Assembly (NCBI GenBank): GCA_035275405.1
Contig: DATEMU010000007.1
Span: forward strand, 372,001-436,000
Source: Phycisphaerae bacterium
GTDB taxonomy: Bacteria > Planctomycetota > Phycisphaerae > UBA1845 > UTPLA1
Direction of reading: 5' to 3'
DNA length: 64,000 bases
The notes beneath the pieces are model-generated. The model did not search any database, had not been told where the DNA came from, and saw only the letters and a list, made by a program, of their open reading frames with translations. Position 1 is the first letter of the stretch. Every line of letters begins with the position of its first letter. Position numbers and translations under genes: made by a program. Below, in pieces: positions 24,224 through 53,674 of this stretch.

Positions 24224-24295
<72 letters not shown>

Positions 24296-28857: not shown

Positions 28858-29411
28858 AGAGAGGGTCCCTCGTCGATTCCCGACCGCTTCGACAAGTGCG
28901 CGTTTACAGTCGAAGAACGGCTGGACATGAGCTCCGCAGAAAGTTCATCGCGGCGAAGCTGAATTCGGGCCTGATTCAGTCGAGCGCGGACTTGAGGACC
29001 CCCGCGTGGCTCCTTTCGGCAATGATGCTCCTCAATCTGCCGGCAGCAGCTTTGGGCGTGGGTGCCAAGTGCAATTTGAAGAGCGTGTTCACACGCCGTG
29101 TCGCCCGTCATGCCGTTCGCGACTGCTTCAATCGCGCAGTCGATGAACGTGTTGCCGGCTGCGGATCCGCGGCACGATTCTCGCGCTGCGTCGAGATTGG
29201 ATATTCGTTCATCGAGCCAAAGCATCGGTTGGTCGCCGCCCCCAAGAATCGCTCGGACTTCCTCGATTTGTGCTTCCTTGAACTCTTGCTTCAGGGATAC
29301 AACGAGTGCCTCCTGTACTTCGGCGGGGCAAAAAGACGGGGTCCCAGCGCGTTCTGCAAGGCATTTCCAGTGCTTTCGCATAGGGAGACTTTTGTGTGGC
29401 CCATCGCTCAT
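28854..29411 (-). CDS. First gene of the QueC-like operon, unknown function
   Basis: A 185-residue product that I do not recognise. It starts MSDGPHKSLPMRKHWKCLAER and is mostly helical, with scattered cysteines and the segments GNTFIDCAIEAVANGMTGDTAC and SCCRQIEEHHC. The C-terminal 60 residues are basic and polar. It has no membrane segment or catalytic motif that I can name. GGAGA lies 7 bases before the ATG and a good promoter lies 20-50 bases upstream. The 4-base overlap with the QueC-like gene suggests that the two products act together; it could be the protein the QueC-like enzyme modifies, which is inference. Confidence 0.75.
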   Translation of the reverse strand: MSDGPHKSLPMRKHWKCLAERAGTPSFCPAEVQEALVVSLKQEFKEAQIEEVRAILGGGDQPMLWLDERISNLDAARESCRGSAAGNTFIDCAIEAVANGMTGDTACEHALQIALGTHAQSCCRQIEEHHCRKEPRGGPQVRARLNQARIQLRRDELSAELMSSRSSTVNAHLSKRSGIDEGPSL

Positions 29412-29430
29412 GCGGTTCTCCGATGTCAGA

Positions 29431-29460
29431 ATTGTATCGCATGAGGCGTGACAATGTCAA
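29431..29460 (-). promoter_or_regulatory. Promoter and operator of the QueC-like operon
   Basis: On the minus strand TTGACA (29460-29455) and TACAAT (29436-29431) are 18 bases apart. A perfect inverted repeat TGACA-T-TGTCA (29459-29449) overlaps the -35 box, placed so that a bound repressor would block polymerase. The XRE-ImmA/IrrE protein of the operon is the natural candidate, which is inference. Confidence 0.7.
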
Positions 29461-29581
29461 CTCGATTCGGGAACGGGAAAGCAGCAAGAAATTGTGGATT
29501 CGTAAGTGTAGAGAGCACAATATATTACGTTTGCGTTTGGCGACGCCGATGGACTTGGTGACACCGAGTACGATGCGCTGT

Positions 29582-29929
29582 TTAGTGCTTAATTGCACCG
29601 AAACGCTGTAAGGGCGGTCCATGCGCGAGCGCCTTCGCAACCGCTGCATTCGCCTCTTCAAGTTGGCGCTGCCGCGAGCGGCTGACAGGATTGACGAGTT
29701 GTGGCGACTGTTCAGAACCGGATAGGCGTTCAGAGAATCGCTGAATCGCTTCTCGGCTCGTGTACGTCGTGCCGCCGATCCTCACGGTTTCCAGTCGGAT
29801 ACCTTTCACGCCACGCAGCGTCCAGCGATAGACGGCACTGATGTGCAACCGCTTGCCGTTCGGCCGCGACGGAAGCAGTTGCGGCACGGCGCGGAGGGGA
29901 ATCAGGTTTTCAACGCCCGTATCAATCAT
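29582..29929 (-). CDS. DUF1580-like small DNA-binding protein (excisionase-like)
   Basis: A 115-residue protein starting MIDTGVENLIPLRAVPQLLPSR. The stretch RLHISAVYRWTLRGVKGIRLETVRIGGTTYTSREAIQRF is the winged-HTH pattern of DUF1580/excisionase-like proteins common on planctomycete mobile elements. I chose the ATG at 29929, inside a longer ORF, because the family N-terminus begins there. It overlaps the end of the small membrane-protein gene to its right by 8 bases. The role could be excisionase or repressor. Confidence 0.75.
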   Translation of the reverse strand: MIDTGVENLIPLRAVPQLLPSRPNGKRLHISAVYRWTLRGVKGIRLETVRIGGTTYTSREAIQRFSERLSGSEQSPQLVNPVSRSRQRQLEEANAAVAKALAHGPPLQRFGAIKH

Positions 29930-30161
29930 GGTCTTGCCGTTGCGAGCCTGGTGCCACGATGAGTGATGAGGCGCACACCTCAGCGACGTGCTCGGCAGTC
30001 GCATCGCAATGCTCTCGCTGTAGATAACTTGTGACGAAGCGCACAACGGCGCCGATCATGCGAAGAACGAGCCGAATCGCCGGATAGATGCCATGACGGA
30101 TGAAGCAGTAGAGCATCCACAACGTCATCACGAGTGCGAGGCAATCAATGATCGTGTCCAT
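29922..30161 (-). CDS. Small membrane protein, unknown function
   Basis: A 79-residue product with an N-terminal hydrophobic stretch (CLALVMTLWMLYCFIRHGIYPAIRLVLRMIGAVVRFV, about residues 7-43) that may span the membrane once or twice, followed by a polar tail. The stop overlaps the start of the DUF1580-like gene, which supports translation. No function can be given. Confidence 0.55.
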   Translation of the reverse strand: MDTIIDCLALVMTLWMLYCFIRHGIYPAIRLVLRMIGAVVRFVTSYLQREHCDATAEHVAEVCASSLIVAPGSQRQDHD

Positions 30162-30223
30162 TAGCCTGTCTTCCTCTTATTAGACTCTCTGGGAATTCCG
30201 GGCAGTTCGACCGCCGGCAGTAT

Positions 30224-31252
30224 TCAGGATGCTTCGCAGCGGCTCTTGAGCCGTTCGTATGCGGATTGCAGAGTGACCGTCAGCTGCGTTGCAAGTGCCT
30301 GAAATTCCTTCGGCACCTGCCCGAATCGATCGGGGTGACACTCGGATATCTTGCGGCGATAGGCGGTCTTGATGTCGTCCAACGAAGCGCCGCGCGGTAC
30401 GCCCAGCGTCTCCCAGGGATCATCGAGCGCGAGGCCCAACTCCTCCGCGATCGACGGCCACTCAGATTCCTTCACGCCGAGGGCCAGCGCCGTATCGCGG
30501 ATGATCGTCAATTCCGCGGCTGTTAGATCACCATCGCTCTTGGCGATGAGCGTCAGCAGTTCGAGCAGGACAGCACCCTTCAGTTTGAAGCAGCGTAACC
30601 AGGTTTGCTCGACCAGCGACCGTACATTGGTCGCCGACGCGCCTTTCACCGCATCGCGCAACGCGGGAAGTTCAGCGGGAGTGATGTCAAACAACTTGGT
30701 GAGCGAAACTCTCATCTGCCGGACCTTCTCGGGAACGGCGCTCCCGTTGGCGCGGACGACGATCATGCAGAGTTCAATCAGGGGACGCAGGTACGCACAC
30801 TTGTTCCACTTCTTGCGCGCCGGCAGTCGAAACTTGTACACCCAGCGCCCCAGGTAATCGGCGATGTCGCCGTCGTTGTCGAGACAGACAATCGCGACGC
30901 GCAGCTCGTATTCGCCGGCCCTTGGATAGATGAGCGCGGAGAACGGGATGTACATCGCGGCTACATCGTCATCGAATCTATCCAACTGGAAAAAATCGCC
31001 GTCGCTGTCGGCATACTCGTTGACCGCCTTCACATAATCTCCGTCCGTCGTCATCATCATGACCGAGGCGTAGAGTCCGTCACCGGTCCCGGGCGGCAGT
31101 GTGATCCGAACCCGGCGACCGAGGTCATCATTTAGAAACCCGACTTCAGGCTCCGGTCCCGACGGTTCGTCCGGCTTGCCGTTGGCTGAAGCGAGCCATT
31201 CGCCTGCCTTGCGGAACAACCAATCGATTGCCAATTCTGGAATGGTCACCAT
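30224..31252 (-). CDS. TerB-like domain plus C-terminal J-domain protein
   Basis: A 342-residue protein with three parts. The N-terminal beta-rich segment (about residues 35-145) reads GFLNDDLGRRVRITLPPG and PFSALIYPRAGEYELRVAIVCLDNDG. A central helical TerB/DjlA-like domain follows (about 150-265, ELLTLIAKSDGDLTAAELTIIRDTALALGV). The J-domain is C-terminal (about 280-335), with the HPD motif in SECHPDRFGQV. The layout recalls DjlA-type co-chaperones without a membrane anchor, so it should stimulate an Hsp70. Its job on the mobile element is unknown. It is upstream of other minus-strand element genes but not overlapping them. Confidence 0.85.
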   Translation of the reverse strand: MVTIPELAIDWLFRKAGEWLASANGKPDEPSGPEPEVGFLNDDLGRRVRITLPPGTGDGLYASVMMMTTDGDYVKAVNEYADSDGDFFQLDRFDDDVAAMYIPFSALIYPRAGEYELRVAIVCLDNDGDIADYLGRWVYKFRLPARKKWNKCAYLRPLIELCMIVVRANGSAVPEKVRQMRVSLTKLFDITPAELPALRDAVKGASATNVRSLVEQTWLRCFKLKGAVLLELLTLIAKSDGDLTAAELTIIRDTALALGVKESEWPSIAEELGLALDDPWETLGVPRGASLDDIKTAYRRKISECHPDRFGQVPKEFQALATQLTVTLQSAYERLKSRCEAS

Positions 31253-32231: not shown

Positions 32232-33740
32232 TTACGGTCGCTGCCTGAATGAAGTCCTGATCCAGTTTCGTCCGCTCGCTTTGAAACGTCGGCCATGCTG
32301 AAAAACGATGGCATCGACCATCCAACCGTGAGCAGGGCCGCCCGTGCGCAACGTGGTCCACTCGCGCGGCTGAATCTCGTACTCAAATGTTTCGCTGAAT
32401 CCGGCCGACGTGGAACCGCCGCCGTCCAGCCAGTCCAGCCCGACGGCCGCCGCCCATCGATGATCTTTGTCGTAGGAACTGTTGCCGCTGGCGAGAAACT
32501 GCCGCGAGCGGCCGATGAGATTGGCCGACCAGCTATTTGTGACGGCATCGCCGTTTGCCAGGAGCACTTTGGTGTTCAAGTTTCCGAACAGCGAGTCCGC
32601 TTCGTTTTGAGCCTTCGCAGCGCCGCCCAGCGCGGCGTAGATGTTGCTCACATTCTGGGAAAGCAGACACAAGGCGACATTCGCGCTGCGACACGTCGAT
32701 GCGAACATCGCATCGTGGCCCATCAGAAAATATTGACACTCGTCGATCCAGATGAACGCCGGCGTCGGATGAGAAGAGAACGTTCGGCGCTTGAGGCTCT
32801 TCTGGAAGCAGTACTTGACGACACCCTGTCCGTAGAGACCGACGGCGCCGTACTCAAAAATCGGCAGATCCACGACAATGATCTTTCCATGATCCAGGAA
32901 TTCCGGAGTGAAGTTTGTTTCCGTGCAGAACAGGCGTCGCAGAATTCCGCGATTCAGGAGATCGACCATCGACATCAGGACGGATTCGATGATGCTTCTC
33001 GTTTTTGGCGCGAGCCGCGGAAAGCGCTGGAGAAAAAAGTCGCAGTCCGTCAGGAAATCCCGTTCCTCGTCGGCTGACTTCTCGCGTCGCGCCGCTTCCG
33101 TGAAGCACTCGTAGCAGAATGAAGTTTCCTGCCACTGCCGGGAACATTTCTCAGCTTCATTTGACGGGGCCGAAACGATCAACTGATACAGATCGGGCAC
33201 GCTGACGCGACCCTTGGCCAGCATCAGCACGTGAATCGCTGCGCGAGCAAGTTCTTTCATTGCATCTCGCCAGTAGCGGTCGCCTTCCATACCGCCGCTC
33301 TGCGATTGGCCGCGGTCGCCGAGTTCAGCAACGGTGCAGAGAAGATTCTCCACGTTGTGCACCAGACCGGCGCCGACGCCTTTTCGCTCACATTCGTATT
33401 GCAAAAAGTTGAATTTCCAGGGCTGGGATGGATTCACCAGAATCAAATCGTCCAACCTGCCGGCAGCGCGAGCGTAGGACTCCCACAATGCCGCTTCGTC
33501 GGATTTCGCGGTCATCACGAGCCCGGAAAATCCCGCCTTGAGCATGGCGAGCGCCATCGCCCGGCCAGGGCCGGTTGTCTTGCCGGCACCGGTCGCGCCG
33601 AGGATCAGTGTTCCCTCAACCGCGTCGCGGACGGTCCAGGAGTCGTTGCGCGACCAGCGCAACAGCTCTGTGGACAGCCCGTTTGTATCCTGCGTCTTGC
33701 GGCGAAAAAGCGACGGCCGCAGAAATCGTCCGAACATCAT
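32232..33740 (-). CDS. VirD4/TraG-type coupling ATPase
   Basis: A 502-residue ATPase of the type IV coupling-protein class, which brings the relaxase-DNA complex to the transfer channel. The Walker A motif is GATGAGKT at 48-55 and the Walker B motif is in AFIWIDECQYF. The segment after Walker A (MALAMLKAGFSGLVMTAKSDE) and the late CLLSQNVSNIYAALG match the TraD/VirD4/TraG pattern. No N-terminal transmembrane helices are visible, so it may rely on the next membrane protein or act as a soluble variant. It is encoded with ParB and a SprT-like gene on the minus strand. Confidence 0.85.
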   Translation of the reverse strand: MMFGRFLRPSLFRRKTQDTNGLSTELLRWSRNDSWTVRDAVEGTLILGATGAGKTTGPGRAMALAMLKAGFSGLVMTAKSDEAALWESYARAAGRLDDLILVNPSQPWKFNFLQYECERKGVGAGLVHNVENLLCTVAELGDRGQSQSGGMEGDRYWRDAMKELARAAIHVLMLAKGRVSVPDLYQLIVSAPSNEAEKCSRQWQETSFCYECFTEAARREKSADEERDFLTDCDFFLQRFPRLAPKTRSIIESVLMSMVDLLNRGILRRLFCTETNFTPEFLDHGKIIVVDLPIFEYGAVGLYGQGVVKYCFQKSLKRRTFSSHPTPAFIWIDECQYFLMGHDAMFASTCRSANVALCLLSQNVSNIYAALGGAAKAQNEADSLFGNLNTKVLLANGDAVTNSWSANLIGRSRQFLASGNSSYDKDHRWAAAVGLDWLDGGGSTSAGFSETFEYEIQPREWTTLRTGGPAHGWMVDAIVFQHGRRFKASGRNWIRTSFRQRP

Positions 33741-33836: not shown

Positions 33837-33920
33837 TCAGCTATTGCTGCTTGACGAACCTCCGCTCGAACCGCTGAGAATTGCGAGCAGAACGGCCAGT
33901 GCGATCTTGAACAACTTCAT
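33837..33920 (-). CDS. 27-residue peptide with a signal-like helix
   Basis: The product is MKLFKIALAVLLAIL followed by a Gly/Ser tail (SGSSGGSSSSNS). AAAGGAG lies 8 bases before the ATG on the minus strand, and the ATG overlaps the ParB stop (ATGA), so translation is credible. It could be a tiny membrane peptide or an entry-exclusion-type lipoprotein remnant; no lipobox cysteine is present. Confidence 0.55.
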   Translation of the reverse strand: MKLFKIALAVLLAILSGSSGGSSSSNS

Positions 33921-34756
33921 GACACAACTCCTTTGCTTGGGGCGTCGGCGGAAAGCGCCTTGGCGGCGTCCGCAAGCGCCATGTCCTGTGGCTCCAGCGT
34001 GCCAATACGTTTCAGCAGCGCTTGCAGCCACTCAATCAACGAAGTGAGCGTGAGATTCGGTCCGGAGACAGTCAGCGAGCGACCGGGGCCAACCCGAATC
34101 GTGAACCGTTCGCGCGCCGGTCGCTTCGCCCGTCGCGGCTGCTGGTGATTGCGCTTGAGCGACTTGACTCGCGTGACGAGTCCGTCGCGTTTCAGGCTGC
34201 CATCCAGTACTCCCGCGACAAGCTGCTCGCGTTCGTCGGCGCTCTCGACGGTCGCAATGGCGTACGCGCTGCTCATGGGAACGCGGGCCGCATCGATCAA
34301 GTCCTGCACTTCCCGCGGCAGAACCAGCAGCGCCAGCAACTTTGAGATCGTCGCTTCCGACGGCCCGCCGAGCCGGAGGGACACTTCCGATGCAGACCAA
34401 CCCGATTCTGTCATCAACTTGGCAATGGCACGGACGCGCTCCATCGTCTTGAGGCTCGATCGCTGGCAGTTTGCCACAAGCTGGAGCGTCAGGAGTTCGG
34501 ACGCCGTGGGCGCTCGCTCGGTCAGGATCATCGGCACGACTTCCAGCCCGGCGCGAGTTGCCGCGTCAAGCCGGCGATGCCCGTCATCGACGATGACCGC
34601 ATCACCTTCGCGGTGGCCGAGCAGCGGCACGAGGATTCCGTTGGCACGAATGCTCTGGGCAAGCGCGATTTGCTCTTCCTCGACGACTCGGTCGCGGACG
34701 TTTGAGCGGACTTCGATTCGACTGATCGCTATGTGTTGATCGAGATTGGATACCAC
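33917..34756 (-). CDS. ParB-like partition/nuclease-domain protein
   Basis: A 279-residue ParB-family protein. The N-terminal ParB/Srx domain contains NGILVPLLGHREGDAVIVDDGHRRLDAATRAGLEVVPM with the DGxRR-type GHRRLDAA box. An HTH-like central region follows (ESGWSASEVSLRLGGPSEATISKLLALL), with a basic C-terminal part (RRAKRPARERFTIRV). It probably binds a centromere-like site or regulates the transfer genes. The partner ParA lies 11 kb away at 45845 on the other strand, so a split partition system is possible. It overlaps the small peptide gene after it by 4 bases. Confidence 0.85.
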   Translation of the reverse strand: MVSNLDQHIAISRIEVRSNVRDRVVEEEQIALAQSIRANGILVPLLGHREGDAVIVDDGHRRLDAATRAGLEVVPMILTERAPTASELLTLQLVANCQRSSLKTMERVRAIAKLMTESGWSASEVSLRLGGPSEATISKLLALLVLPREVQDLIDAARVPMSSAYAIATVESADEREQLVAGVLDGSLKRDGLVTRVKSLKRNHQQPRRAKRPARERFTIRVGPGRSLTVSGPNLTLTSLIEWLQALLKRIGTLEPQDMALADAAKALSADAPSKGVVS

Positions 34757-39764: not shown

Positions 39765-40181
39765 TTACCACTGAATTGAATCGACGACCGTCGCATTTCC
39801 CGCCGCCGTAAGGCTCTCGCTATCCGGCACTTCCCGAATCCACGGCACGCGGTGACGGGCGAGGCCCTCAAAGAGGCGAATTGTCGGCTGCACTTCGGCG
39901 TTGAGGTTCCGGCCCTTGACTTGCACTTTACCGCCTGACACCGTGAGCACGATGCCTTCCGACGGATCGAACGCAAATCGCTCGATGCCGTGATACGGAA
40001 TGGCGACGATGTTGCCGTTCGCCTGCCGCAGCTCGACAGCAAGCGCGCGGTCGCGGATGCCGCGAAGCCAGCCGAAGCAGCCCAGGTCGTCGATTCCGGG
40101 TTCGTCGGGCGAGATCGCCGCATCGACGTTGCCGTTGGCGCGGCCGACGTATTTTTCGAGAAGCCTACCGTTACCGCTCAT
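39765..40181 (-). CDS. Small protein downstream of the relaxase
   Basis: A 138-residue soluble product (MSGNGRLLEKYVGRANGNVDAA) with an SH3- or Sm-like beta-rich middle (RALAVELRQANGNIVAIPYHGIERFAFDPSEGIVLTVSGG). Its start overlaps the relaxase stop by about 10 bases, so they form one transcript and it may be a relaxase accessory or regulator. It is not a family I can name. Confidence 0.7.
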   Translation of the reverse strand: MSGNGRLLEKYVGRANGNVDAAISPDEPGIDDLGCFGWLRGIRDRALAVELRQANGNIVAIPYHGIERFAFDPSEGIVLTVSGGKVQVKGRNLNAEVQPTIRLFEGLARHRVPWIREVPDSESLTAAGNATVVDSIQW

Positions 40182-42813
40182 AATCCTGCCTTTCCTGTTG
40201 CCGCTGTGCTTCGCTTGTGGCGACGGCCGGATGCAGTTGCTCCAGCCGCTCCATCGTCATCGCACGCTGCCTCGTTGAGCGGTCGTTCACCAGTTCCGTG
40301 GCCGACAGCCGCGCGTCCGAGCGGCTGACCGCCGCCTTGAGCGCCGCCTTATCGTCGGTGTAGATCGTCGCCCGCTCGCGGCCGCGGGAGACGGAGACGT
40401 AGAATTGCTCGCGGGACGCCGCCGGGAGACTGGTCGCCGATTCGCCGATCAGGACGCGCTGGACCGTGCGCGACTGTGCAGCATGGCTCGTCACAACATA
40501 CCCATGCTTCAGATGCCCGTAGTCCTTCGCAACCCTCCATCCGTTCGCGAGGATGATATTTCCGTTTCCGTCGAAGCCCTTCACCGTGTAGGTCGCGCCG
40601 TTGTTGAGCCTGTGCAGACCGTCGGCAGTCTTTCCGTTCCGCGTAATGCGGATCAGCTCGCCCGGTGCGATCGGCATCAGCCCGGGTTTGTAAAGCGTGT
40701 ATTTTGCGGCTTCGTCCATCGGCGGCGGTTCATCGCCGATTATGACGCGCTCGCCCTTGCCATAACCCTTCGCGTTCTGGTGGAACTCCAGCACGTCGCC
40801 GGCTTCGAGATTGATCGGGTCGCCACGCTCGGCTTCGGTGTAGTGGGTGTTGTGGAGCGTCAGCACCTGCCGCTCGCGGCCGGACAGACGCTTGGTCTGC
40901 TTGAGCTTCGAGCGGATTTCATCGGTGATCCAGTCGCCCTCGCGGTGCGTCGGGCTTACGACGAGCGCTGTCTTGCCCTTCTTCAGCGTCGCGACGTAAT
41001 CCTCTGCCATCATCTTGTATCGATCGGTATCCGTGACTTCGCGCACCCAACCCAGCCGGTCGAGCGCATGAAGCCCCTCTTCCGTCCGGCCCTGCGACAG
41101 CGACTTGACCGCTTCCTTGTAGGCGCCGCTCTGCCGCTGAATCTCGCGGATTTCCGCCGGCACCAAGCCGGCCTGTTCTTCGAGCAGCCGGAGTGCCGCG
41201 CCGCGCTCGACCGACCCGTGCTGCCTTCGGTCCCCGGATAGAATCACGCGGGCGTCGATTTGCTTCGCAAGTTCAAACACATGGCCCATTGTCTTTGTAC
41301 CGAGAAGTCCCGCCTCGTCGATCCACAGCACCTGCCCCCTGGCCCGCGCCTGCAACTCGCCATCGACGAGCAGCCGCGCCACGGTTTCCGCGTCGGCGAA
41401 GCCCTGATCCCTGAGCACGCCGCGGCTGGCGTCGGCCGAAGGCGCAAACGTGAAGACGTGTTTGCCGCTTTTCTCAATCGCTTCAACGGCTTCCGACATC
41501 ATCGAAGTCTTGCCGGTGCCCGCGCCGCCGCGAATGAGCATGACGCGGTCGGGCGAGTTGAGGACGTGCAGCACGGCGCTTCGCTGGTCGGCGTTGAGCC
41601 ATTCGCGCGTGAAGACGTGCTCGCCCTTGCCGAGCTTGCGGCAAGTGCCCCTGCCCTGACGCGCGAAGTCGATAATGCGCCGCTCTTCGGCGACCACGTC
41701 GCCGGTCGTGACGAGCTGCTCCCCGTCACGTTCGCCGCGCACCAGGTTCGCGCCGCCGAGCTTCTGCAGGACGGTCCTGGCCGAGGCCGCGCCGTACGAG
41801 CGTTTGAGCGCCGCCGTCACGAGTTTGCGTTCAGACAGCACCGAGCTGCGCTCGAAGGAATGCTCGATTGCTTTGGCGACGGCGTCGCCCGCGGCGCGGT
41901 CATCCTCCGCGATGCTGTCCATCCCAACGCGTGCCTTGATCCCTTCAAGCGCCGCCAGTTCCTCCGGCGTGAGCCGCGACTTCCATTCGCGGCCGAGTTC
42001 ATCGAAGGTCAGATCCTTGCGCTTGCGCTCGCGAGTCTTCGCCCCAAGCTCGCCTTTGGTTTCGGCATCGGTGATGCCCCTCTCCCGCGCCTGTTCTTCG
42101 ATGAGCGCCGTTCGCCGCGAGAACTTGGAAAGCGCCGCCTTCGGCACGCCGGCCAGCTCCCAGCCGTGCCGAGTCCGTTGCACGGGAAGGCCCAGTTCCT
42201 CCATGCGCCGCGCCAGCCGCGAATGAAACACCGCCTCGAAGAACGGCGCATCCCGCTTGAGGCCCGCGAACTGGCCCGCCTTCCACCGCTCTTCGATGCC
42301 GTCCCAGGTCGTGTTGAACACGAAGCAGTGCGCGTGCAGGTGCGGGTCCGGCACGCCGTCCACCGGCCGCGCCGTCGTGTGGATGAACTCTCCCCACACC
42401 ATGTTGCCGGTCGTGCGGTCCTCGTTCCTGCCGGCAAGCCGCACGCGGGTTTTCATTTCCGTTTCGATGTCGTGCATGGTCGCATCGACCGACTCGCGGA
42501 ACGCTTCGAGGATTCGCTCGTCTTTCGTGAGACCGTAGAGCACCGACACGCTTTTCGGCACGTGGAAGTTGAAGTCGTACCCGACGCGCCGCCCGTAATT
42601 CTGCCGCGGCGTCAGTGCGTTGCCGGTATTCGGGTCGATGTTGTCGCAGAGCGCATCCCAGTCTTTTTGCTCGACTGCGCCGGACAGCCCAAGGCGCTTC
42701 GCCCCTTCTCCGCGCCAGTGCCCGGTAAGCTCCTGACCTTCCGAGTAATAGTCGGCGGTCGAATAGTAGCTCTTCGCGCCATCGGGCGCGGTGTTCTGAT
42801 TGATGCGAAGCAT
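40171..42813 (-). CDS. MobF-type relaxase-helicase (TrwC/TraI-like)
   Basis: An 880-residue conjugative relaxase. The N-terminal domain carries the catalytic tyrosines (Y16-Y17 and Y22-Y23 in SYYSTADYYSE) and the metal-binding histidines H158, H160 and H162 (DPHLHAHCF). The C-terminal part is a RecD-like helicase with Walker A GGAGTGKT, Walker B (LWIDEAGLL) and the late VTSHAAQSRTVQRVLIG and YVSVSRGRERATI motifs. It should nick the element at oriT, stay bound to the 5' end and unwind the strand for transfer. It is shorter than F TraI but about the size of TrwC. Its promoter should lie in the gene-free stretch at 42814-43344. Confidence 0.95.
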   Translation of the reverse strand: MLRINQNTAPDGAKSYYSTADYYSEGQELTGHWRGEGAKRLGLSGAVEQKDWDALCDNIDPNTGNALTPRQNYGRRVGYDFNFHVPKSVSVLYGLTKDERILEAFRESVDATMHDIETEMKTRVRLAGRNEDRTTGNMVWGEFIHTTARPVDGVPDPHLHAHCFVFNTTWDGIEERWKAGQFAGLKRDAPFFEAVFHSRLARRMEELGLPVQRTRHGWELAGVPKAALSKFSRRTALIEEQARERGITDAETKGELGAKTRERKRKDLTFDELGREWKSRLTPEELAALEGIKARVGMDSIAEDDRAAGDAVAKAIEHSFERSSVLSERKLVTAALKRSYGAASARTVLQKLGGANLVRGERDGEQLVTTGDVVAEERRIIDFARQGRGTCRKLGKGEHVFTREWLNADQRSAVLHVLNSPDRVMLIRGGAGTGKTSMMSEAVEAIEKSGKHVFTFAPSADASRGVLRDQGFADAETVARLLVDGELQARARGQVLWIDEAGLLGTKTMGHVFELAKQIDARVILSGDRRQHGSVERGAALRLLEEQAGLVPAEIREIQRQSGAYKEAVKSLSQGRTEEGLHALDRLGWVREVTDTDRYKMMAEDYVATLKKGKTALVVSPTHREGDWITDEIRSKLKQTKRLSGRERQVLTLHNTHYTEAERGDPINLEAGDVLEFHQNAKGYGKGERVIIGDEPPPMDEAAKYTLYKPGLMPIAPGELIRITRNGKTADGLHRLNNGATYTVKGFDGNGNIILANGWRVAKDYGHLKHGYVVTSHAAQSRTVQRVLIGESATSLPAASREQFYVSVSRGRERATIYTDDKAALKAAVSRSDARLSATELVNDRSTRQRAMTMERLEQLHPAVATSEAQRQQERQDYER

Positions 42814-45599: not shown

Positions 45600-45840
45600 C
45601 GTGAAAGCCTGCATGAAAGCATGTCAGCTTGCCATCATGCTGGCATGACAGCAGGAAGGACGGCAGGCGTGCAAGCCGCATGGAAAGCAACCTGTCTTGA
45701 TTGCTTGAATGTAAGCAGACAGGCATGTCAGGTTGCCTGATTGCAGGCAGGTAATCCTGACAGGTTGCTTGCAGGACGGCGAGCTTGCATGCCGGCAGCA
45801 AATAGTGCTTGCCAGCCTGCATGAAATCATGCTATCCGTC
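45600..45840. repeat. Short-repeat region upstream of parA (candidate centromere)
   Basis: The stretch carries many short direct and inverted repeats: GCCTGCATGAAA near 45607 and again near 45815, each followed by a CATG, CAGGTTGC near 45730 and 45762, and at least eight TTGC-type motifs. It has no gene. ParA-type systems are often bordered by the site that their partner binds and that controls their promoter. The region 45201-45599 holds nothing I recognise. Confidence 0.5.
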
Positions 45841-45844
45841 TTAC

Positions 45845-46507
45845 ATGATTATCGTCGTGGCGAATTCCAAAGGCGGTGTCGGGAAATCGACGCTCGCCGT
45901 TCACCTTGCCGCGTGGCTCCATGAGCAGGGCCATCGAGTGACGCTTGCCGACTGCGACACGCAGCAGTCATCTTCCGAATGGATACGCGAGGCGATACCG
46001 GACATCAAAGCCGTCCGCCTCGACAACCCCGACATCATCTTGAATGAACTGCCGATTCTTGCCCAGGATGCCGACTACGTCGTGGCCGATGGACCGGGCA
46101 GCCAGACCGAGACGAGCCGCGCGTTGTTGCTGCGCGGCGATCTTGCGATTGTTCCCTGCAAAGCCAGCATGTTAGAGGTCCGGGCGCTTGCTAAAGCGAC
46201 CGAAGTCTTGCGCCAGGCCCAGGACATTCGCGGCGGAATCCCGAAGGCCGTGATCGTCCTCAGCATGGTCGGAAAGAACTACCGGCTGACGCAGGACATG
46301 AAGGATGCCGCCGCCGCACTGTCGCTGCCGATGGCAACGACGGCGATGACACTCCGCCAGATTTACGCCGACGCGCCGGGGCAGGGGTCCGTCGTATGGA
46401 ATCTCGGCTCCCGCGCCCGCGAGGCGGCGCACGAGGCCGAAGCGCTCTTCCGCGAGATTCTGCCGGACGCCGTCGCGCCGGCAGCACGCCAGGCCGTGAA
46501 GGCATAG
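45845..46507 (+). CDS. parA: ParA-family partition ATPase
   Basis: A 220-residue deviant Walker A ATPase. The nucleotide site is NSKGGVGKSTLAVHLA at the N-terminus with LADCDTQQSSSEW after it. The small size is that of the ParA type Ib (plasmid) class, without an N-terminal HTH. It should move or position element DNA before cell division. A small basic protein gene follows immediately (13 bases) and may be its partner, and a repeat-rich region precedes it. Confidence 0.93.
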   Translation: MIIVVANSKGGVGKSTLAVHLAAWLHEQGHRVTLADCDTQQSSSEWIREAIPDIKAVRLDNPDIILNELPILAQDADYVVADGPGSQTETSRALLLRGDLAIVPCKASMLEVRALAKATEVLRQAQDIRGGIPKAVIVLSMVGKNYRLTQDMKDAAAALSLPMATTAMTLRQIYADAPGQGSVVWNLGSRAREAAHEAEALFREILPDAVAPAARQAVKA

Positions 46508-46519
46508 GACGTGATCGCC

Positions 46520-46819
46520 ATGGCCGAACGACGCACGCTCACGCAAGGACTCAAGGAAACGCCGCCGCCGATCGACACGGCCAAGGAGAAGGCATTCGTC
46601 TTCGGCGAGAAGGAACAACCCAAGCCGGCCGCGCCCGTCGTTGCCGCGGCGACACTCAATCGCGTGCCGATCAGCACGCGCATCCGCGACGACTTCGCGC
46701 GGGCGCTGAAGCGCGCATCGCTGGAGCGGCAGCTTGAGGGCAGGGAGCCGAACACGCTTCAGGATATTCTCGAAGAAGCCATCGAGCCGTGGCTCAAGGC
46801 GAACGGCTACCTGTCTTGA
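46520..46819 (+). CDS. Small partner of ParA, probably DNA-binding
   Basis: A 99-residue product starting at ATG 46520 (GTG 46511 also possible), 13 bases after parA. The basic N-terminal half is disordered, and the end (RVPISTRIRDDFARALKRASLERQLEGREPNTLQDILEEAIEPWLKANG) looks like a ribbon-helix-helix or coiled ParB-like segment. In type Ib systems such a small downstream gene encodes the centromere-binding protein, so a ParB-type role is likely. Its end overlaps the convergent RepL-like gene by 13 bases. Confidence 0.7.
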   Translation: MAERRTLTQGLKETPPPIDTAKEKAFVFGEKEQPKPAAPVVAAATLNRVPISTRIRDDFARALKRASLERQLEGREPNTLQDILEEAIEPWLKANGYLS

Positions 46820-47466
46820 TCGCCGTCGATCACAGGACCCACGATGACAGGCGCATCCGCAGCTTCCGTAACAGGCGAGGGCAGGGCGGCCGTATCCCCG
46901 AGTTGAAGCTCCTGTTGCCGACTCGCACCCTTCAGATGATATGTCCGCACGAATGCGAGCCGGTCCCCATTGAACATGAAGCGGATGTTGACGAAGAACA
47001 CGCCGTCGGAAGGGCTGCGGTACAGGAATTCCTTTTCAAGAAGTTCCCGCACACCCCGCTGATAGGTGCGATCGCTGATCCCGTGATCCTTGGCGACGTA
47101 CTGATTCAGCTTGATTTCATCAGATCCCGGATTGGCGCGCATTTCGTGATAGACGAGTTCGAACACCTGCAAACCAGTCTTCGACAGGTCCGCCGCTTGC
47201 TTGATGCCATCGAGGAACATCTTTACGAATCGGCTGCTGTCCACTTCCTCTTCCCACCAGAAGCCCATGCCGCCGATGCCTTTGATCTCGCCGCTACTGT
47301 TATCAACGATGACCGAACCCCTGCCACCCGGCACCTGAAACCGTTTGGTCCGAGTCGTGATGCCATTGGTCGTCGGCACACTTGGATTCGTCCGGTAGAC
47401 CGGGAATCCACGCTTGGTGCTCACCTGGTTATCCGGCAGGGCCGCAATCTGTCGCACTTCCGTCAT
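46807..47466 (-). CDS. RepL-like replication initiator/winged-helix protein
   Basis: A 219-residue protein. The central winged helix (about residues 115-160) reads ISDRTYQRGVRELLEKEFLYRSPSDGVFFVNIRFMFNGDRLAFV, recalling RepL-like plasmid initiators, whose typical C-terminal part has a NPxxFxNGDR-type segment. I chose the ATG at 47466 rather than 47502; a dyad TGTCTGT-AA-ACAGACA lies 17 bases ahead of it. Iterons and a DnaA box are directly upstream (47538-47747), which favours an initiator over a plain regulator. The family match is by eye only. Confidence 0.65.
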   Translation of the reverse strand: MTEVRQIAALPDNQVSTKRGFPVYRTNPSVPTTNGITTRTKRFQVPGGRGSVIVDNSSGEIKGIGGMGFWWEEEVDSSRFVKMFLDGIKQAADLSKTGLQVFELVYHEMRANPGSDEIKLNQYVAKDHGISDRTYQRGVRELLEKEFLYRSPSDGVFFVNIRFMFNGDRLAFVRTYHLKGASRQQELQLGDTAALPSPVTEAADAPVIVGPVIDGDQDR

Positions 47467-47482
47467 TTTCAGCCTCCATATT

Positions 47483-47498
47483 TGTCTGTAAACAGACA
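47483..47498. promoter_or_regulatory. Dyad operator in front of the RepL-like gene
   Basis: TGTCTGT and ACAGACA form a perfect 7-bp inverted repeat around AA. It lies 17 bases upstream of the minus-strand ATG, so it is placed to be bound by the protein itself for autoregulation. Confidence 0.65.
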
Positions 47499-47537
47499 GC
47501 ACACTGGCAGATTAGCGACAGAAGCGCAAGTGCTTTT

Positions 47538-47590
47538 TGACGGTTCACCGTCCGATCGTGACGGTCGCCCGTCAATTCGTGACGTTTCCG
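47538..47590. repeat. Three 21-bp iterons; candidate replication origin
   Basis: TGACG(G) begins at 47538, 47559 and 47580, exactly 21 bases apart (two helical turns). The first two units read TGACGGTTCACCGTC and TGACGGTCGCCCGTC, each with inner dyad symmetry (GACGG/CCGTC), and the third is partial. Iterons beside an initiator gene are the hallmark of plasmid origins. Confidence 0.7.
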
Positions 47591-47738
47591 ATTCAGGAAA
47601 ATCAACGACTTGCGCCCTTGCTCTTTCTTACTACTAAATAGGGCACATGAGCCGCCGACGGCGCGCGCCCCCAAAGCGCTGGCGACGGCGGCGGCCCGCT
47701 GCAACCATGACAAGAACCGCCCCGAAACAGGACGAACC

Positions 47739-47747
47739 TGTGGATAA
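47739..47747 (-). promoter_or_regulatory. Perfect DnaA box
   Basis: TGTGGATAA is the exact complement of the consensus DnaA box TTATCCACA. It lies 150 bases from the 21-bp iterons and within the gene-free stretch 47503-48093, as expected in a plasmid origin. Confidence 0.65.
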
Positions 47748-47890
47748 CTCAGTGAATAAGAGGCCAGATCGCAACGAGAAGGCGACACCGATATGACAGG
47801 TGTTGCGCGATTGACACAGGAGCCGTGACTTCGAGCTTGCGGAAAGGCCGTTTGGGCATTCAGGAGAAGGTTCGAGCCAGCCGAACCACC

Positions 47891-47914
47891 TTCATTCGCA
47901 ATAGGAAGCCCGTA
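47891..47914 (+). repeat. 24-bp direct repeat, copy 1
   Basis: This perfect 24-base repeat, starting TTCATTCGCAAT and ending GCCCGTA, recurs at 53651-53674. Similarity continues for a few bases on both sides (ACCA before it, AGxCG after it). The two copies flank the whole methyltransferase-helicase gene. Confidence 0.9.
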
Positions 47915-48093
47915 CAGACGCGAAAGACCCAATCAGCGATATCTGCGGTGACGAATACCGTTGTCGCTTTTCAATTGCGCTGATTCGCGGAGCGTGTTAT
48001 CCGACAGTTGAGTATTCACGATTCGGGAACACGCATGACGCGAGCCTGCCAGAGCATGGCAAATCAACCCCGCTGCCAGGAACGGCCGTAGGC

Positions 48094-51000
48094 ATGGCCC
48101 GCCGGCCGCGTCCCCCACAAGGTCCGCTCCTGCCGTTCCCGTCGTCCGACGACCCGCCCGCTGCCCTCGAAGAACCCCCAAAATCCAAAGGAGATCACGA
48201 TGCAGTACAAAACGATCGTCCTCGAACTCATCCGCCAGCGACCCAGGCTTCACGCCCGGCTCCGCCGCAAACACCAGTTGCTGGCCGAGGTGAATCGCCT
48301 CGCCGGCGACCTGAAGGCTCGCCACGAGGAACTGACGACGACGCTGACGATGGGCCGGGTCGGCATCGATCCGGTGCAGGCGCCGGGCGCGGCGCTGGAG
48401 ATCGGCTTGAAGGAAGTCGAGCATCGTTTACGGCTCATGTCGCAGGCGCGCAGACCGCGCGTCCGCAAACGCACGCGGCGCGGCTGAAGTGGGTTCGAGA
48501 GGCGACGCTTTTCGACCTGTCTCCAACTTCGACTGAAACGCCGCATCCGACGCCAAAGGCCGATCCGCAAACCCCGGCAACAGAACCGGCCGAACGTCTG
48601 GCGCCGGTGCAGATAGCAAGCGGCGAGAAGGAGAAGGCCCGCGACCTGATCGCGGCAATCCGAACGCTTCAGACCGTCGAGCGGGAAGCGCGGCCCGCCA
48701 CGCCCGACGAAAAAAACGGGATGGCGCGGTTCGCCGGCTTCGGTCCCGTGGCGCTGTCGATATTCCCCGACCCTCTGAAGGGCCGCTACAAGGATGCCGG
48801 CTGGGAAAAACTCGGCAATGAACTGAAAACGCTGCTGACGCCTTCTGAGTACGACAGTGCAAAGCGGACGACATTCAACGCCTTCTACACATCCCCGATC
48901 GTCATCGGCGCTATTCATGACGCCATCACGCGGCTCGGAGCGCCGCAGGACGGGCTGATCCTCGAACCCGGCTGCGGCATCGGCAACTTCATTGGCCAGG
49001 GGAGCAGCCGCCATCGCTTCATCGGCGTCGAGCTGGACTCGATCTCCGGGCGCATCGCCAGGGCGCTGCATCCCGATCAGGACATCCGCATCGAGAGCTT
49101 CCGCGACACGAAGCTGCCGGACGGAATCGACGCCGTCGTCGGCAACGTGCCGTTCGCCGACCTGCGTCTCGATTACCAGGGACAGAAGCTCGCGCTGCAC
49201 GATTACTTCCTCGCCAAATCCGTCGATGCGCTGAAGCCAGGCGGCGTCATGGCGATGGTCACGTCGCACTTCACCCTCGACAAGCAGAACGCTGCCGTCC
49301 GCGAGTATCTCGCCTCCAAGGCCGACTTCGTCGGGGCGATACGCCTGCCGTCCGACGCCTTCAAGCGTGAAGGTACGGCGGTCGTTACCGACATCATCTT
49401 TCTGCGCAAACGCGCTCCCGGCGAGCCGGAACATCACGCGGATACCGACTGGCTTCGCGTCGCCCCGCTTGCAATCGAAGGCGTCGAAGTTCCGGTCAAT
49501 CGCTACTTCCTCAATCACCCGGAAATGGTGCTCGGTCGGTGGAGCCGCAAGGACACGCTCTACGGTGGAGAAGGCTACAGCCTCCAGGGCGACGGAGATC
49601 TGTCCGCGAAACTGAAGGATGCAATCGGCCGACTGCCGGAGTTCTCGCCGGCACAGTCAACCAGGGCAGCCGGGACGGACGCGCCGGCATTCACGCCGCC
49701 GCCGCTCGAAAAGCACGTCGGCGAGGGGAGCTTCTTCGTCGGAAAGAACCAGGGCATCCATCAGCTGATAAGCGGTAAGCCGGTGCCGGTGGTGTACGGC
49801 GGCACCGCGCTCAAGGCCGACGGGACGATGACCGGCAGACGGATGGCCGGGCTGATCGGACTGCGCGACTGTGCCCGCCGCGTGCTGCAATCGCAGAATG
49901 AAGACTGGCCGTGCGAACACCGCGACGAGGCGCGGCGCGACTTGAACCGCGTGTATGACCGGTTCGTCCGAGCCTACGGCCCGATCAACAAGACCAGCTT
50001 CAGTGAAACCAAAGACGGCAGCGTCGTCCGCCGCCGGCCCAACCTGGTCAAGTTTATCGAAGACCCCGATGCCATGCTGGTGATGTCCCTCGAAGACTAC
50101 GACGAGGTGACGGAGAAAGCGGCGAAGGCCGCGATCATGAGCCGGGACGTGGTCGGCCGGACGCCGCCCGTCACCGTGGTCCGAAGCGCCGAGGAAGGAC
50201 TGCTCGTGGCCTTGAATCAGAAGGGCAGGGTGGACCTGCCGGTTATCGCCGAACTGTACGGCAAGCCCGAGAAGTCGGTCATCGCCGAACTGGGCGACCT
50301 GATCTACCAAGACCCCGAATCGAAGGAGTGGAAGACGGCGGACGATTACCTCTCCGGCAACGTCCGCGCCAGGCTCGCCCGCGCCGAGAAGGCCGGCCCG
50401 AAATACGCCCGCAACGCCGAGGCCCTGCGCCGGGTGCAACCCGAGGACGTGCTGCCCGGCGATATCGACGCCAATCTCGGCGCGCCGTGGATTCCCGCAT
50501 CCGACGTGCAACGCTTTGCCGCCGAGCTGTTCCAGGTTCCGCCCGAGGCCGTACCGGTTTCCCATCTGGAAAAGGACGCAGTGTGGAGCCTCGACGCCGG
50601 CTACGCAGCCAGGCAATCGGTCGCCGCGACTTCCGATTACGGCACCGCCCGCGCCAACGGCACGACGCTGCTCGAACTGGCGCTCAACATGAAGTCGCCG
50701 GTCATTTACGACGTGATCGACCGCGGCGACAAGGAAGAGCGTGTCGTCAACCAGGAGGAGACGCTCGCCGCCAAGGAAAAGCAGAAGCTCATCAAGGAGC
50801 GGTTCCGCGCATGGGTCTTCACCGACCCTGAGCGCACGGAGCGCCTCGTCCGCATCTACAACGACACCTACAACAACCTCCGTCCCCGCATATTCGATGG
50901 ATCGCACCTCGACTTCCCCGGCATGAACCAAACCGTGAAGCTCCGGCCGCATCAGACGGCCGCCGTGTGGCGCGGCATGAGCGCCGGCAACACGCTGCTG

Positions 51001-53595
51001 GCGCACTGCGTCGGCGCCGGCAAGACGTTTACGATGGCGGCGACCGGCATGAAGATGAAGCAGGCCGGACTCATCAAGAAGCCGATGTACGTGGTGCCCA
51101 ATCACCTGCTGGAGCAATTCGCTCGTGAATTCATGCAGTTGTATCCCAACGCGAAACTGTTGGTCGCCAGCAAGGAGGACCTCTCGCGCGACCGCCGCAA
51201 ACTGCTGACCGCCAAGATCGCCAGCGGCAACTGGGACGGCATCCTCGTCACGCATTCCTCGTTCGAGCGGATCGGCATGTCCCGCAAATACCAGGAGAGA
51301 TTCCTGACCGAGCAGATCGCCGAGTATGACGACCTGCTGCTGGAGCACGCCGGCGCGAAAGGATCGAACCGGAACATCATCAAGCAGATCGAGAAACAGA
51401 AGGCCGCGAGGGCGGAACGGCTCAAGAACCTGCTCGCCGAGGAGAAGAAAGACGACGGTCTCGTATTCGACGAGCTCGGCGTCGATCACGTGTTCATTGA
51501 CGAAGCGCACTATTTCAAGAATCTGGAGACGCCGACCAAGATGGACCGCGTCGCCGGCATTCAGACCGGCGGCAGCGAACGCGCCTTCGACGTGTTCATG
51601 AAAGCCAACTACCTGGGCGAGCAGCACGCCGGCCACGGCGTCACGTTCGCCACCGGCACGCCCGTGTCAAACACGATGGTCGAGATGTACACGATGCAGC
51701 GGTTCCTCGATCCGGCCGGACTCAGGAGCCGCGGCCTCGAACACTTCGACGCCTGGGCGGCGACCTTCGGCGAAGTCATCGACACGATGGAGATTTCGCC
51801 CGACGGGGCATCGCTCCGCCCGCGCAGCCGCTTTGCGAAATTCACCAACCTCCCGGAATTGCAGCAGATGTTCCGGGCATTCTCCGACGTGCAGACGGCC
51901 GAAATGCTCAAACTCCCGACGCCGAGGCTGGAGACGGGAAAGGCGATCATCGTCGCATGTCCGATGTCCGCCGAGCAGCACGCGCTGCAGGACGAGTTGG
52001 TCAAACGCTACGAACGCCTGCGAAAGGAAAAGGTGGACCCGCGCGAGGACAACGCGCTCAACATCACGACCGACGGCCGCAAGCTCGCCACCGACGCACG
52101 ATTGCTTTCCGCTGCCGTGGCCGATTTCCCCGGCTCGAAGGTGAACCGCCTGGTCGAGAACGTCCATACCATCTGGGAGCGCACCGCCGCAAAGCGCGGC
52201 ACACAGATGATCTTCTGCGACATGGGCGTCCATAAGACCCCGTGGGGCTATTCCGCCTACAACGACGTGACCGAGAAACTCGTCAAGGCCGGCATACCCC
52301 GTTCACAGATTGCCGCCATCGGCGAAGCCGATTCCGATGCCAAGAAACAGGCGCTCTTCGAAAAGGTCCGCAACGGCTCGGTGCGCGTCCTGATCGGCAG
52401 CACGCAGAAGATGGGCACGGGCACGAACGTGCAGCAGCGATTGACTGCCCTGCATCACCTCGACGCCCCATGGAAGCCGGCGGAAGTTGAGCAGAGAGAA
52501 GGCCGCATACTTCGCCAGGGCAACACGAACGAGGAAGTCGCCGTCTATCGCTACGTCACCGAAGGATCGTTCGACGCCTACATGTGGCAGGCCCTTGAAA
52601 CCAAGGCACGATTCATCGGCCAGGTCATCACTGGCGACAACGCCGCCCGCCGCGCCGAGGATGTCGGCGGCCAGGAACTGTCCTACGCCGAGGTCAAGGC
52701 CATTGCCTCCGGCAACCCGGCGGTGCTGACGCTCGCCGAGGCCGACGCTGAATTGCAGCGGCTGGCATTGCTCAAGAAAAACCACGTCGATGAGCAGTAC
52801 GTTGCCCGCCGCAGCGTGAAGGACCTGCCCGAGAAAATCACCCGGCTGAATAACCGGTTGTCCAGTTTGACGGCCGATCAAACGAGAGTGACTGCGCACG
52901 CGCGCGACCCGGTCACGATCTACAGGCGAGAATATGCGAAGGACGAGGCCGTCGCCGCGCTCGGCGCTCAACTGGACAGGCTGCCGCGCGACGTGCGAGA
53001 AGAGCAGCGATTCCCGATCGGCACGTATCGCGGCATGCGCTTCGGACTCGTGCTGCATCGGGACTTCCCGCCCGATGCGTACATTGAAGGGGAGACAACG
53101 CGCTACGACCGACTCATTCGCGGCAGCCACGGCCCGCGCGCTGTACTTAACGCGCTGGAGCGGCTGTGCAACGCCTACGGCAACGAGATTGCCGGTGTGA
53201 AGCAGGACCATTCAATCGCCGAGTCGCAGCTCCGCGACTATCAGGCACGCATCGGAAAGCCGTTTGCACACGAGAAATACCAGGCCGAACTGACCGCGCT
53301 CCGCGACCAGCTCAAGGCGTCCCTCGCAGGGATCGCCGCGGAACCGGGGACAGCCGCGCCCCCGTCCGCCGCCGAGATTGCCGAGAAAATCCAGATGCTT
53401 ACCGATTCGAACAACGTTGAAGCCGCGCCGGAGCGCACCGGCCTTCGCCGGTTCGATGCCGAGGAACCCGTCACCGCCCGCATCCGCCGCCGCCATGCAG
53501 CGGACGCGACCGCGATTGCGGATGAGAAGTCGCACAGCACGTTCCAGGGCAGACTCCACACGCCGAAGGCGAATGCCCCTTCAATCGGGTTTTGA
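48094..53595 (+). CDS. Giant methyltransferase-SNF2 helicase protein (DarB-like type)
   Basis: An 1833-codon frame, with a real product from about residue 130. An amino-methyltransferase-like domain carries LEPGCGIGNFIG (about residue 290, cofactor) and GNVPFADLRL (about 350, in place of NPPY). An SNF2/SF2 helicase has Walker A CVGAGKTFTMAAT (about 975), DEAH box VFIDEAHYFKNL (about 1135) and motif VI QREGRILRQGNTNEEVAVYRYVTEGSFDAYMWQ (about 1465-1500). Such proteins occur on phages and plasmids (P1 DarB-like) as antirestriction or DNA-handling factors. The first 130 codons are unusual in composition and overlap a ribosome-binding-site-led gene in another frame (48200-48487), so the real start is uncertain and may be non-ATG near 48480. 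It lies between two 24-bp direct repeats. Confidence 0.85.
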   Translation: MARRPRPPQGPLLPFPSSDDPPAALEEPPKSKGDHDAVQNDRPRTHPPATQASRPAPPQTPVAGRGESPRRRPEGSPRGTDDDADDGPGRHRSGAGAGRGAGDRLEGSRASFTAHVAGAQTARPQTHAARLKWVREATLFDLSPTSTETPHPTPKADPQTPATEPAERLAPVQIASGEKEKARDLIAAIRTLQTVEREARPATPDEKNGMARFAGFGPVALSIFPDPLKGRYKDAGWEKLGNELKTLLTPSEYDSAKRTTFNAFYTSPIVIGAIHDAITRLGAPQDGLILEPGCGIGNFIGQGSSRHRFIGVELDSISGRIARALHPDQDIRIESFRDTKLPDGIDAVVGNVPFADLRLDYQGQKLALHDYFLAKSVDALKPGGVMAMVTSHFTLDKQNAAVREYLASKADFVGAIRLPSDAFKREGTAVVTDIIFLRKRAPGEPEHHADTDWLRVAPLAIEGVEVPVNRYFLNHPEMVLGRWSRKDTLYGGEGYSLQGDGDLSAKLKDAIGRLPEFSPAQSTRAAGTDAPAFTPPPLEKHVGEGSFFVGKNQGIHQLISGKPVPVVYGGTALKADGTMTGRRMAGLIGLRDCARRVLQSQNEDWPCEHRDEARRDLNRVYDRFVRAYGPINKTSFSETKDGSVVRRRPNLVKFIEDPDAMLVMSLEDYDEVTEKAAKAAIMSRDVVGRTPPVTVVRSAEEGLLVALNQKGRVDLPVIAELYGKPEKSVIAELGDLIYQDPESKEWKTADDYLSGNVRARLARAEKAGPKYARNAEALRRVQPEDVLPGDIDANLGAPWIPASDVQRFAAELFQVPPEAVPVSHLEKDAVWSLDAGYAARQSVAATSDYGTARANGTTLLELALNMKSPVIYDVIDRGDKEERVVNQEETLAAKEKQKLIKERFRAWVFTDPERTERLVRIYNDTYNNLRPRIFDGSHLDFPGMNQTVKLRPHQTAAVWRGMSAGNTLLAHCVGAGKTFTMAATGMKMKQAGLIKKPMYVVPNHLLEQFAREFMQLYPNAKLLVASKEDLSRDRRKLLTAKIASGNWDGILVTHSSFERIGMSRKYQERFLTEQIAEYDDLLLEHAGAKGSNRNIIKQIEKQKAARAERLKNLLAEEKKDDGLVFDELGVDHVFIDEAHYFKNLETPTKMDRVAGIQTGGSERAFDVFMKANYLGEQHAGHGVTFATGTPVSNTMVEMYTMQRFLDPAGLRSRGLEHFDAWAATFGEVIDTMEISPDGASLRPRSRFAKFTNLPELQQMFRAFSDVQTAEMLKLPTPRLETGKAIIVACPMSAEQHALQDELVKRYERLRKEKVDPREDNALNITTDGRKLATDARLLSAAVADFPGSKVNRLVENVHTIWERTAAKRGTQMIFCDMGVHKTPWGYSAYNDVTEKLVKAGIPRSQIAAIGEADSDAKKQALFEKVRNGSVRVLIGSTQKMGTGTNVQQRLTALHHLDAPWKPAEVEQREGRILRQGNTNEEVAVYRYVTEGSFDAYMWQALETKARFIGQVITGDNAARRAEDVGGQELSYAEVKAIASGNPAVLTLAEADAELQRLALLKKNHVDEQYVARRSVKDLPEKITRLNNRLSSLTADQTRVTAHARDPVTIYRREYAKDEAVAALGAQLDRLPRDVREEQRFPIGTYRGMRFGLVLHRDFPPDAYIEGETTRYDRLIRGSHGPRAVLNALERLCNAYGNEIAGVKQDHSIAESQLRDYQARIGKPFAHEKYQAELTALRDQLKASLAGIAAEPGTAAPPSAAEIAEKIQMLTDSNNVEAAPERTGLRRFDAEEPVTARIRRRHAADATAIADEKSHSTFQGRLHTPKANAPSIGF
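48200..48487 (+). CDS. 95-residue basic helical protein before the helicase
   Basis: This ORF is in a different frame from the helicase reading and has AAAGGAG 8 bases before its ATG. Its product (MQYKTIVLELIRQRPRLHARL...LLAEVNRLAGDLKARHEELTTTL) is a natural-looking amphipathic, basic helix pair, while the overlapping leader of the helicase is P/R/G-rich as in shadow frames. It is probably the true gene here, perhaps coupled with the helicase. The stop at 48485 falls just where the conserved helicase sequence begins. Confidence 0.6.
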   Translation: MQYKTIVLELIRQRPRLHARLRRKHQLLAEVNRLAGDLKARHEELTTTLTMGRVGIDPVQAPGAALEIGLKEVEHRLRLMSQARRPRVRKRTRRG

Positions 53596-53650
53596 GGCCT
53601 CAAGGAAGCGTGAAACACCGGTTGATGGGGAGAGAACCCACCAGACCATT

Positions 53651-53674
53651 TTCATTCGCAATAGGAAGCCCGTA
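53651..53674 (+). repeat. 24-bp direct repeat, copy 2
   Basis: This copy is identical to 47891-47914. It lies 55 bases after the helicase stop and just before the kelch gene. It could be the end of a transposed or recombined segment. Confidence 0.9.

Follow-up and report, generated by a model that had tools for sequence, protein, structure and literature searches.

Whether an element inserted in a planctomycete chromosome carries its own means of replication is the question raised by the locus around repL in the 64,000-nucleotide stretch of DNA analysed here (the window), which is part of contig C7 in a 5.29-Mb genome. The original prediction of a plasmid-type origin within an integrated element proved largely right, with corrections, and we infer replication itself. 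Membership of the RepL family, an intact and selected coding sequence, a conserved origin layout and integration with att repeats are established. We consider it quite likely that this locus provides for the replication of a mobilizable Planctomycetota element integrated at a tRNA gene, and that the element replicates as a low-copy plasmid once excised; as judged from its sequence, the element would probably be able to copy itself after leaving the chromosome.

Table 1. Features of the probable replication module and of the element that carries it (window positions)
Feature	Position	Strand	Basis or remark
attL, 3' 42 bp of tRNA-Gly(CCC)	24254-24295	+	Exact repeat
Tyrosine integrase beside tRNA	24418-25590	+	PF00589
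TraD/TraG-type coupling protein	32232-33740	-	TraG-D_C above cut-off
parB-like gene	33917-34756	-	HTH_ParB and ParB_N above cut-off
MobF (TrwC-type) relaxase-helicase	40171-42813	-	Relaxase
parA, partition ATPase	45809-46507	+	NF041546, E 9e-47, below its equivalog cut-off
Small ribbon-helix-helix (RHH)-like protein, probable ParG-type ParA partner	46511-46819	+	56B_RHH match weak, below cut-off
repL, predicted winged-helix replication initiator, 219 aa	46807-47466	-	Pfam, plasmid homologues, dN/dS, wHTH core in model
Dyad of 7 bp, TGTCTGT-AA-ACAGACA; lies between -10 and RBS, probable operator of repL	47483-47498		Read directly
Probable repL promoter	47501-47529	-	-35 TTGCGC 47524-47529, 17-nt spacer, -10 CAGTGT 47501-47506
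Iteron 1, 21 bp	47538-47558		TGACGGTTCACCGTCCGATCG; dyad TGACGG...CCGTC
Iteron 2, 21 bp	47559-47579		TGACGGTCGCCCGTCAATTCG; dyad TGACGG...CCGTCA
Iteron 3, degenerate	47580-47600		TGACGTTTCC...; TGACG half-site alone kept
AT-rich conserved region	47621-47643	-	Core TAAGAAAG at 47623-47630, 164 bp upstream of start codon
GC-rich hairpin, possible single-strand initiation (ssi) site	47651-47697		Compensatory changes
Exact DnaA box TTATCCACA	47739-47747	-	Sole exact match in the 64-kb window
attR, exact 42-bp copy	window-equivalent 74415-74456 (C7:446415-446456)		10.4 kb beyond the window

The RepL protein and its distribution

The claim of a RepL-like winged-helix gene was borne out by a match to Pfam RepL PF05732 (E 1.3e-5; 25.2 bits against a curated gathering cut-off of 20.3 bits). 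An unrelatedness of the protein to initiators, named beforehand as a ground for refutation, was not what the family search showed, since the RepL family includes experimentally shown initiators; the DNA upstream of the gene is laid out like origins of this family that were defined by experiment. Neither a HUH or Rep_trans nickase, nor a Rep_3/TrfA-type initiator, nor a primase domain was matched in RepL by Pfam or NCBIfam models. The protein thus lacks the nickase domain of the HUH rolling-circle plasmids and is a wHTH Rep of the kind found in RepL/RepY/pHW126-type replicons. The ORF was first called at 46807-47502 on the minus strand with a GTG start at 47502; the true start is most likely the ATG at 47466, because it is preceded by a Shine-Dalgarno sequence (GGAGG) and the same start is used in 17 close relatives. 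The reading frame is intact and its dN/dS values of 0.06-0.11 point to strong purifying selection.

An AlphaFold model built from 28 diverse sequences had a moderate mean pLDDT of 61 and can be relied on only for the wHTH core, which was modelled with confidence at about residues 77-160; an earlier model from 17 close sequences was too weak (mean pLDDT 51). Foldseek returned MarR and CodY-type DNA-binding domains for the model, with E-values without significance, and a PDB sequence search with the RepL profile gave no significant match.

RepL was found in 11 of the 101 genomes searched, as 17 copies of 83-94% identity with at most three per genome, several of them inside chromosome-size contigs. 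The named relatives belong mostly to Planctomycetota and, further off, to Verrucomicrobiota, Proteobacteria, Bacteroidota and one cyanobacterium; viral contigs and phage records contained no relative. Homologues were located by tblastn on 190 plasmid records. The closest (52% identity) is carried by the complete circular 13.3-kb plasmid unnamed4 of Acidisoma sp. PAMC 29798, and others lie on circles of 2.3-2.9 kb with one to four further genes. The small metagenome contigs with RepL loci had no end overlaps signalling circularity.

Conserved layout upstream of repL

About 235 bp of non-coding DNA upstream of repL are conserved in all 17 copies, which come from several families, and similarity drops beyond this block. 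Nearest to the gene, upstream of ATG 47466, lies the dyad; its perfect 7-bp symmetry was read directly in the window as predicted. It is most likely a promoter operator rather than a part of the origin core. Most relatives keep only TGTC...ACAGACA of the dyad, and the promoter columns are conserved in 37 gapless upstream sequences.

Three 21-bp iterons had been predicted. The first two are clear (71% identical), while the third is degenerate. In the window, lag 21 scored 18/24. None of 100 Markov shuffles and 1 of 200 came up to this value, and chance does not account for the 21-bp period. The inner symmetry of the iterons is kept at a second RepL copy of the same genome, as evidenced by the joint change of both arms of iteron 1 (GACGG...CCGTC to GTCGG...CCGAC). 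Replicons of this type have 3-4 direct repeats of 20-22 bp ahead of rep, and the window conforms, with the third copy degenerate. Repeats with a period of 20-22 occur at about -120 in most RepL origins across phyla, their letters varying by lineage. Across the family, the operator shares a mean of 7.9 6-mers with its own iterons versus 2.9 with the iterons of other loci (0 of 2000 permutations) and 1.8 with an upstream control region, values to which base composition may contribute. The half-sites of the dyad and of the promoter spacer are conserved, and they change in concert with the iterons family-wide, which is the pattern predicted for a single protein recognizing both; the copy in the window does not show this at the level of exact 6-mers, of which operator and iterons have none in common.

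The AT-rich segment that was to be looked for is present, and it contains the motif with the highest information content of the whole upstream region. When the DNA upstream of repL was clustered at 60% identity of the iteron region into 38 independent groups, the motif YRAGAARR was found on the repL strand in 28 of them, representing several phyla, and on the other strand in only 2; shuffled sequences gave a mean of 4.0 and a maximum of 10. In most groups that have it, the motif starts some 164 bp ahead of the start codon. With TAAGAAAG at -164, the window has the conserved region of about 20 bp that lies upstream of the repeats in this replicon type, and it may be the counterpart of the conserved region (CR) of pHW126/pIGRK, to which we liken it by layout rather than by letters.

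Directly upstream, the GC-rich hairpin adjoins the AT-rich motif. Among 27 distinct sequences of the close group, 22 cells of the stem were changed on both sides and 91% of cells were paired; covariation was 0.237 compared with 0.076 in shuffled alignments (0 of 500) and at most 0.091 when the stem was slid. The hairpin occupies the place of the ssi-like palindrome found upstream of the conserved region in this replicon type, and its role as a single-strand initiation or primosome site is putative, being suggested because it is placed like the ssi of pIGRK. The AT-rich motif and the hairpin are the two best-conserved parts of the origin, and both had been overlooked in the original prediction. 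In several distant lineages the hairpin arms contain TTACCCAC and GTGGATAA, which resemble DnaA boxes, in inverted order. Arms of the form GTTACCCAC / (G/A)TGGATAAC with the same C-A mismatch were seen at loci L068, L070, L073, L076, L080 and L084 and in the Acidisoma plasmid (L025).

A motif scan confirmed the predicted exact DnaA box as the single TTATCCACA of the window. Of 17 close relatives, 10 carry the box exactly and at an almost constant distance, and the other 7 do not have it; it is therefore not essential for this origin class and appears to be optional. An Rfam search of 44-54.5 kb gave no match. The right end of the gene-free stretch predicted at 47503-48093 stands if the 1833-aa ORF starts at 48094, and a 95-aa ORF at 48200 casts doubt on it. 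These two frames, the start of the former and the latter with a good RBS, overlap in 48094-48487, and both are conserved there.

The integrated element

The claim that the element is integrated was substantiated by exact 42-bp att repeats of the tRNA-Gly 3' end, which delimit an element of 50.2 kb. A tyrosine recombinase, starting 123 bp from attL, is present as predicted; it belongs to the phage-type integrases and scores far short of the XerD equivalog cut-off. Domain matches likewise upheld parA (45809) and the parB-like gene (33917). An integrase next to a tRNA gene with att direct repeats and a relaxase are features of integrative and mobilizable elements, and no match to PF03135, a model for the VirB4-type mating-pair ATPase that an integrative and conjugative element would possess, was found in the whole genome; the element is therefore best called integrative and mobilizable. 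The coupling protein, ParB, MobF relaxase, ParA, RHH protein and RepL form a backbone common to most relatives, and the RHH-like gene is kept beside parA in all relatives examined. The same tRNA gene is also occupied by a related element in a genome of another genus (G012), where the 42-bp repeat recurs at a distance of 60.7 kb; for the copies in G013 and G047, att repeats were not found within 60 kb.

We infer excision, RepL binding, autoregulation, opening, priming and replication as follows. The integrase would excise the element at the 42-bp repeats, and RepL would bind the three iterons upstream of its own gene while repressing its own synthesis through the related half-sites at the promoter. 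Binding would open or activate the adjacent AT-rich region; the hairpin upstream would probably prime the second strand or load a primosome, a step that the DnaA box may assist in some lineages. The excised circle would then replicate as a low-copy plasmid, be segregated by ParA, the small RHH protein and ParB, and be mobilized by the MobF relaxase with the secretion system of a helper, followed by re-integration. Between theta and rolling-circle replication, sequence alone does not discriminate.

A second related element lies in the same genome at G000:C14:215000-245000 (L003, L004), with 76-85% nucleotide identity, an intact RepL and identical gene order from the coupling protein through the large helicase gene. 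A reading of its repL as a pseudogene was rejected, as the stops fall outside the ATG-started frame. A 30-bp direct repeat (93%) at 47885-47914 and 53645-53674 flanks a 5.7-kb module, which some related elements are without. The module contains the 95-aa ORF and the 1833-aa protein (48094-53595), which has Eco57I-like methylase and SNF2/DrmD-like helicase regions and resembles defence-system proteins. The right end of the element was at one point placed at the repeat at 53645-53674, and this was rejected in view of the att repeat at 74415. Possible defence cargo at 26297-31252 consists of an IrrE/RmrA-like protein, a QatC-like protein with an unknown partner and a TerB-DnaJ protein. Just past attR, a second tyrosine integrase (46% identical; L005:10587-11750, i.e. 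C7:446587-447750) suggests a tandem insertion of another element at this tRNA site.

Known replicons and competing readings

Several homologous or similarly built replicons have been studied in small plasmids. The homologue on Sulfitobacter pDSM110277_f (35% identical to the window RepL) was demonstrated to be functional and named RepY (PMC9025767), and in Paracoccus pMOS6 Rep alone was enough for replication; in pMOS6, two iteron-like repeats of 18 bp are separated by 3 bp, which gives a 21-bp period (PMC3832669). These RepY-type plasmids share with the window a homologous wHTH Rep and iterons of 21-bp period, and pDSM110277_f also has the conserved motif, as TGAGAAGG at -161. Unlike the element, they are small and free, lack an integrase, a tRNA site and a MobF relaxase, and differ in iteron sequence. 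The pIGRK origin requires in cis a CR of ~20 bp and four 20-bp repeats with 2-bp spacers, and in trans the wHTH protein RepR; its promoter also has operator repeats, and the origin contains an ssi-like palindrome (PMC6854812). The group pHW126/pIGRK/pIGMS31, with 20-bp direct repeats and 2-bp spacers, resembles the window in its ssi-like palindrome, ~20-bp conserved region, direct repeats, operator repeats and HUH-less wHTH Rep (PMC6854812), but consists of small plasmids for which rolling-circle replication is presumed. In the pIGMS31-typed pEA1, the forward conserved motif is absent from its usual place, and a similar sequence may be on the other strand. Upstream of repL in pIGMS31-type plasmids (L026, L034), a TATAAGAAATATAAGA-like sequence is found on the strand opposite to that of other RepL origins.

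The Acidisoma plasmid unnamed4 is like the window in its three 21-bp repeats, TAAGAAGG at -164, adjoining ParA and ParG, and a coupling protein; it differs in being free, in its MobQ relaxase and in its divergent parA and repL, which are convergent in the window. SGI1, ICEBs1 and TnGBS are, like the element described here, integrated mobile elements with replication functions of their own, and their replicons are by description different from this one.

The main rival to a working replication module, which we regard as unlikely, is that the wHTH protein is now purely a DNA-binding regulator, for example of excision or transfer, and that the iterons are an operator array which no longer starts replication. 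Its precedent is SEN1990 of the Salmonella island ROD21. ROD21 resembles the element studied here in being integrated and in encoding a relaxase as well as a wHTH protein annotated as RepL; the excised island replicates and is maintained without this protein, SEN1990 (PMC10655114). SEN1990 is, however, <19% identical to RepL proteins (PMC10655114), whereas the window RepL passes the cut-off and has clear homology to functionally tested replicases. The MarR/CodY-type regulators returned by Foldseek and the position of the iterons immediately upstream of the promoter would suit an operator role, but the hairpin and the AT-rich motif 164 bp upstream, the latter common to true plasmids, would be needless for a mere regulator. 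It is the SEN1990 precedent that holds our confidence below certainty.

We hold a classical theta origin with DnaA and iterons, of the Rep_3/TrfA kind, to be highly improbable. The locus does contain iterons, an exact DnaA box and AT-rich DNA, but no Rep_3 or other theta initiator domain accompanies them, the single DnaA box is lacking from 7 of the 17 close relatives although these retain all else, and the iterons fit the RepL layout. We give equally little credence to a dead remnant, that is, a former plasmid whose module is decaying. The degenerate third iteron could be read in this way, as could the fact that no free plasmid with a close (>55% identical) RepL was found among the plasmid records; against this, the ORF is intact and under constraint, and the 235-bp non-coding block is conserved in the 17 copies from several families.

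The kind of replicon that we favour for this locus is already known, and for its setting in integrated planctomycete elements our literature search returned no description. A poorly understood replicon type, investigated until now in small plasmids of Proteobacteria, would then be widespread in chromosomally integrated planctomycete elements. Rather tentatively, we raise the possibility that the hairpin, the TATAAGAARRG motif, three 21-bp iterons, the operator and a wHTH Rep constitute one origin class across Planctomycetota, Verrucomicrobiota, Proteobacteria, Bacteroidota and Cyanobacteria, in which a starter without nickase or helicase might serve free plasmids and integrated elements alike. 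The cross-phylum alignment pinpoints the origin bases that matter. Few replicating vectors exist for planctomycetes, and the fragment with repL and its origin is therefore a candidate vector origin. The many copies make the use of an own origin after excision testable across integrated elements.
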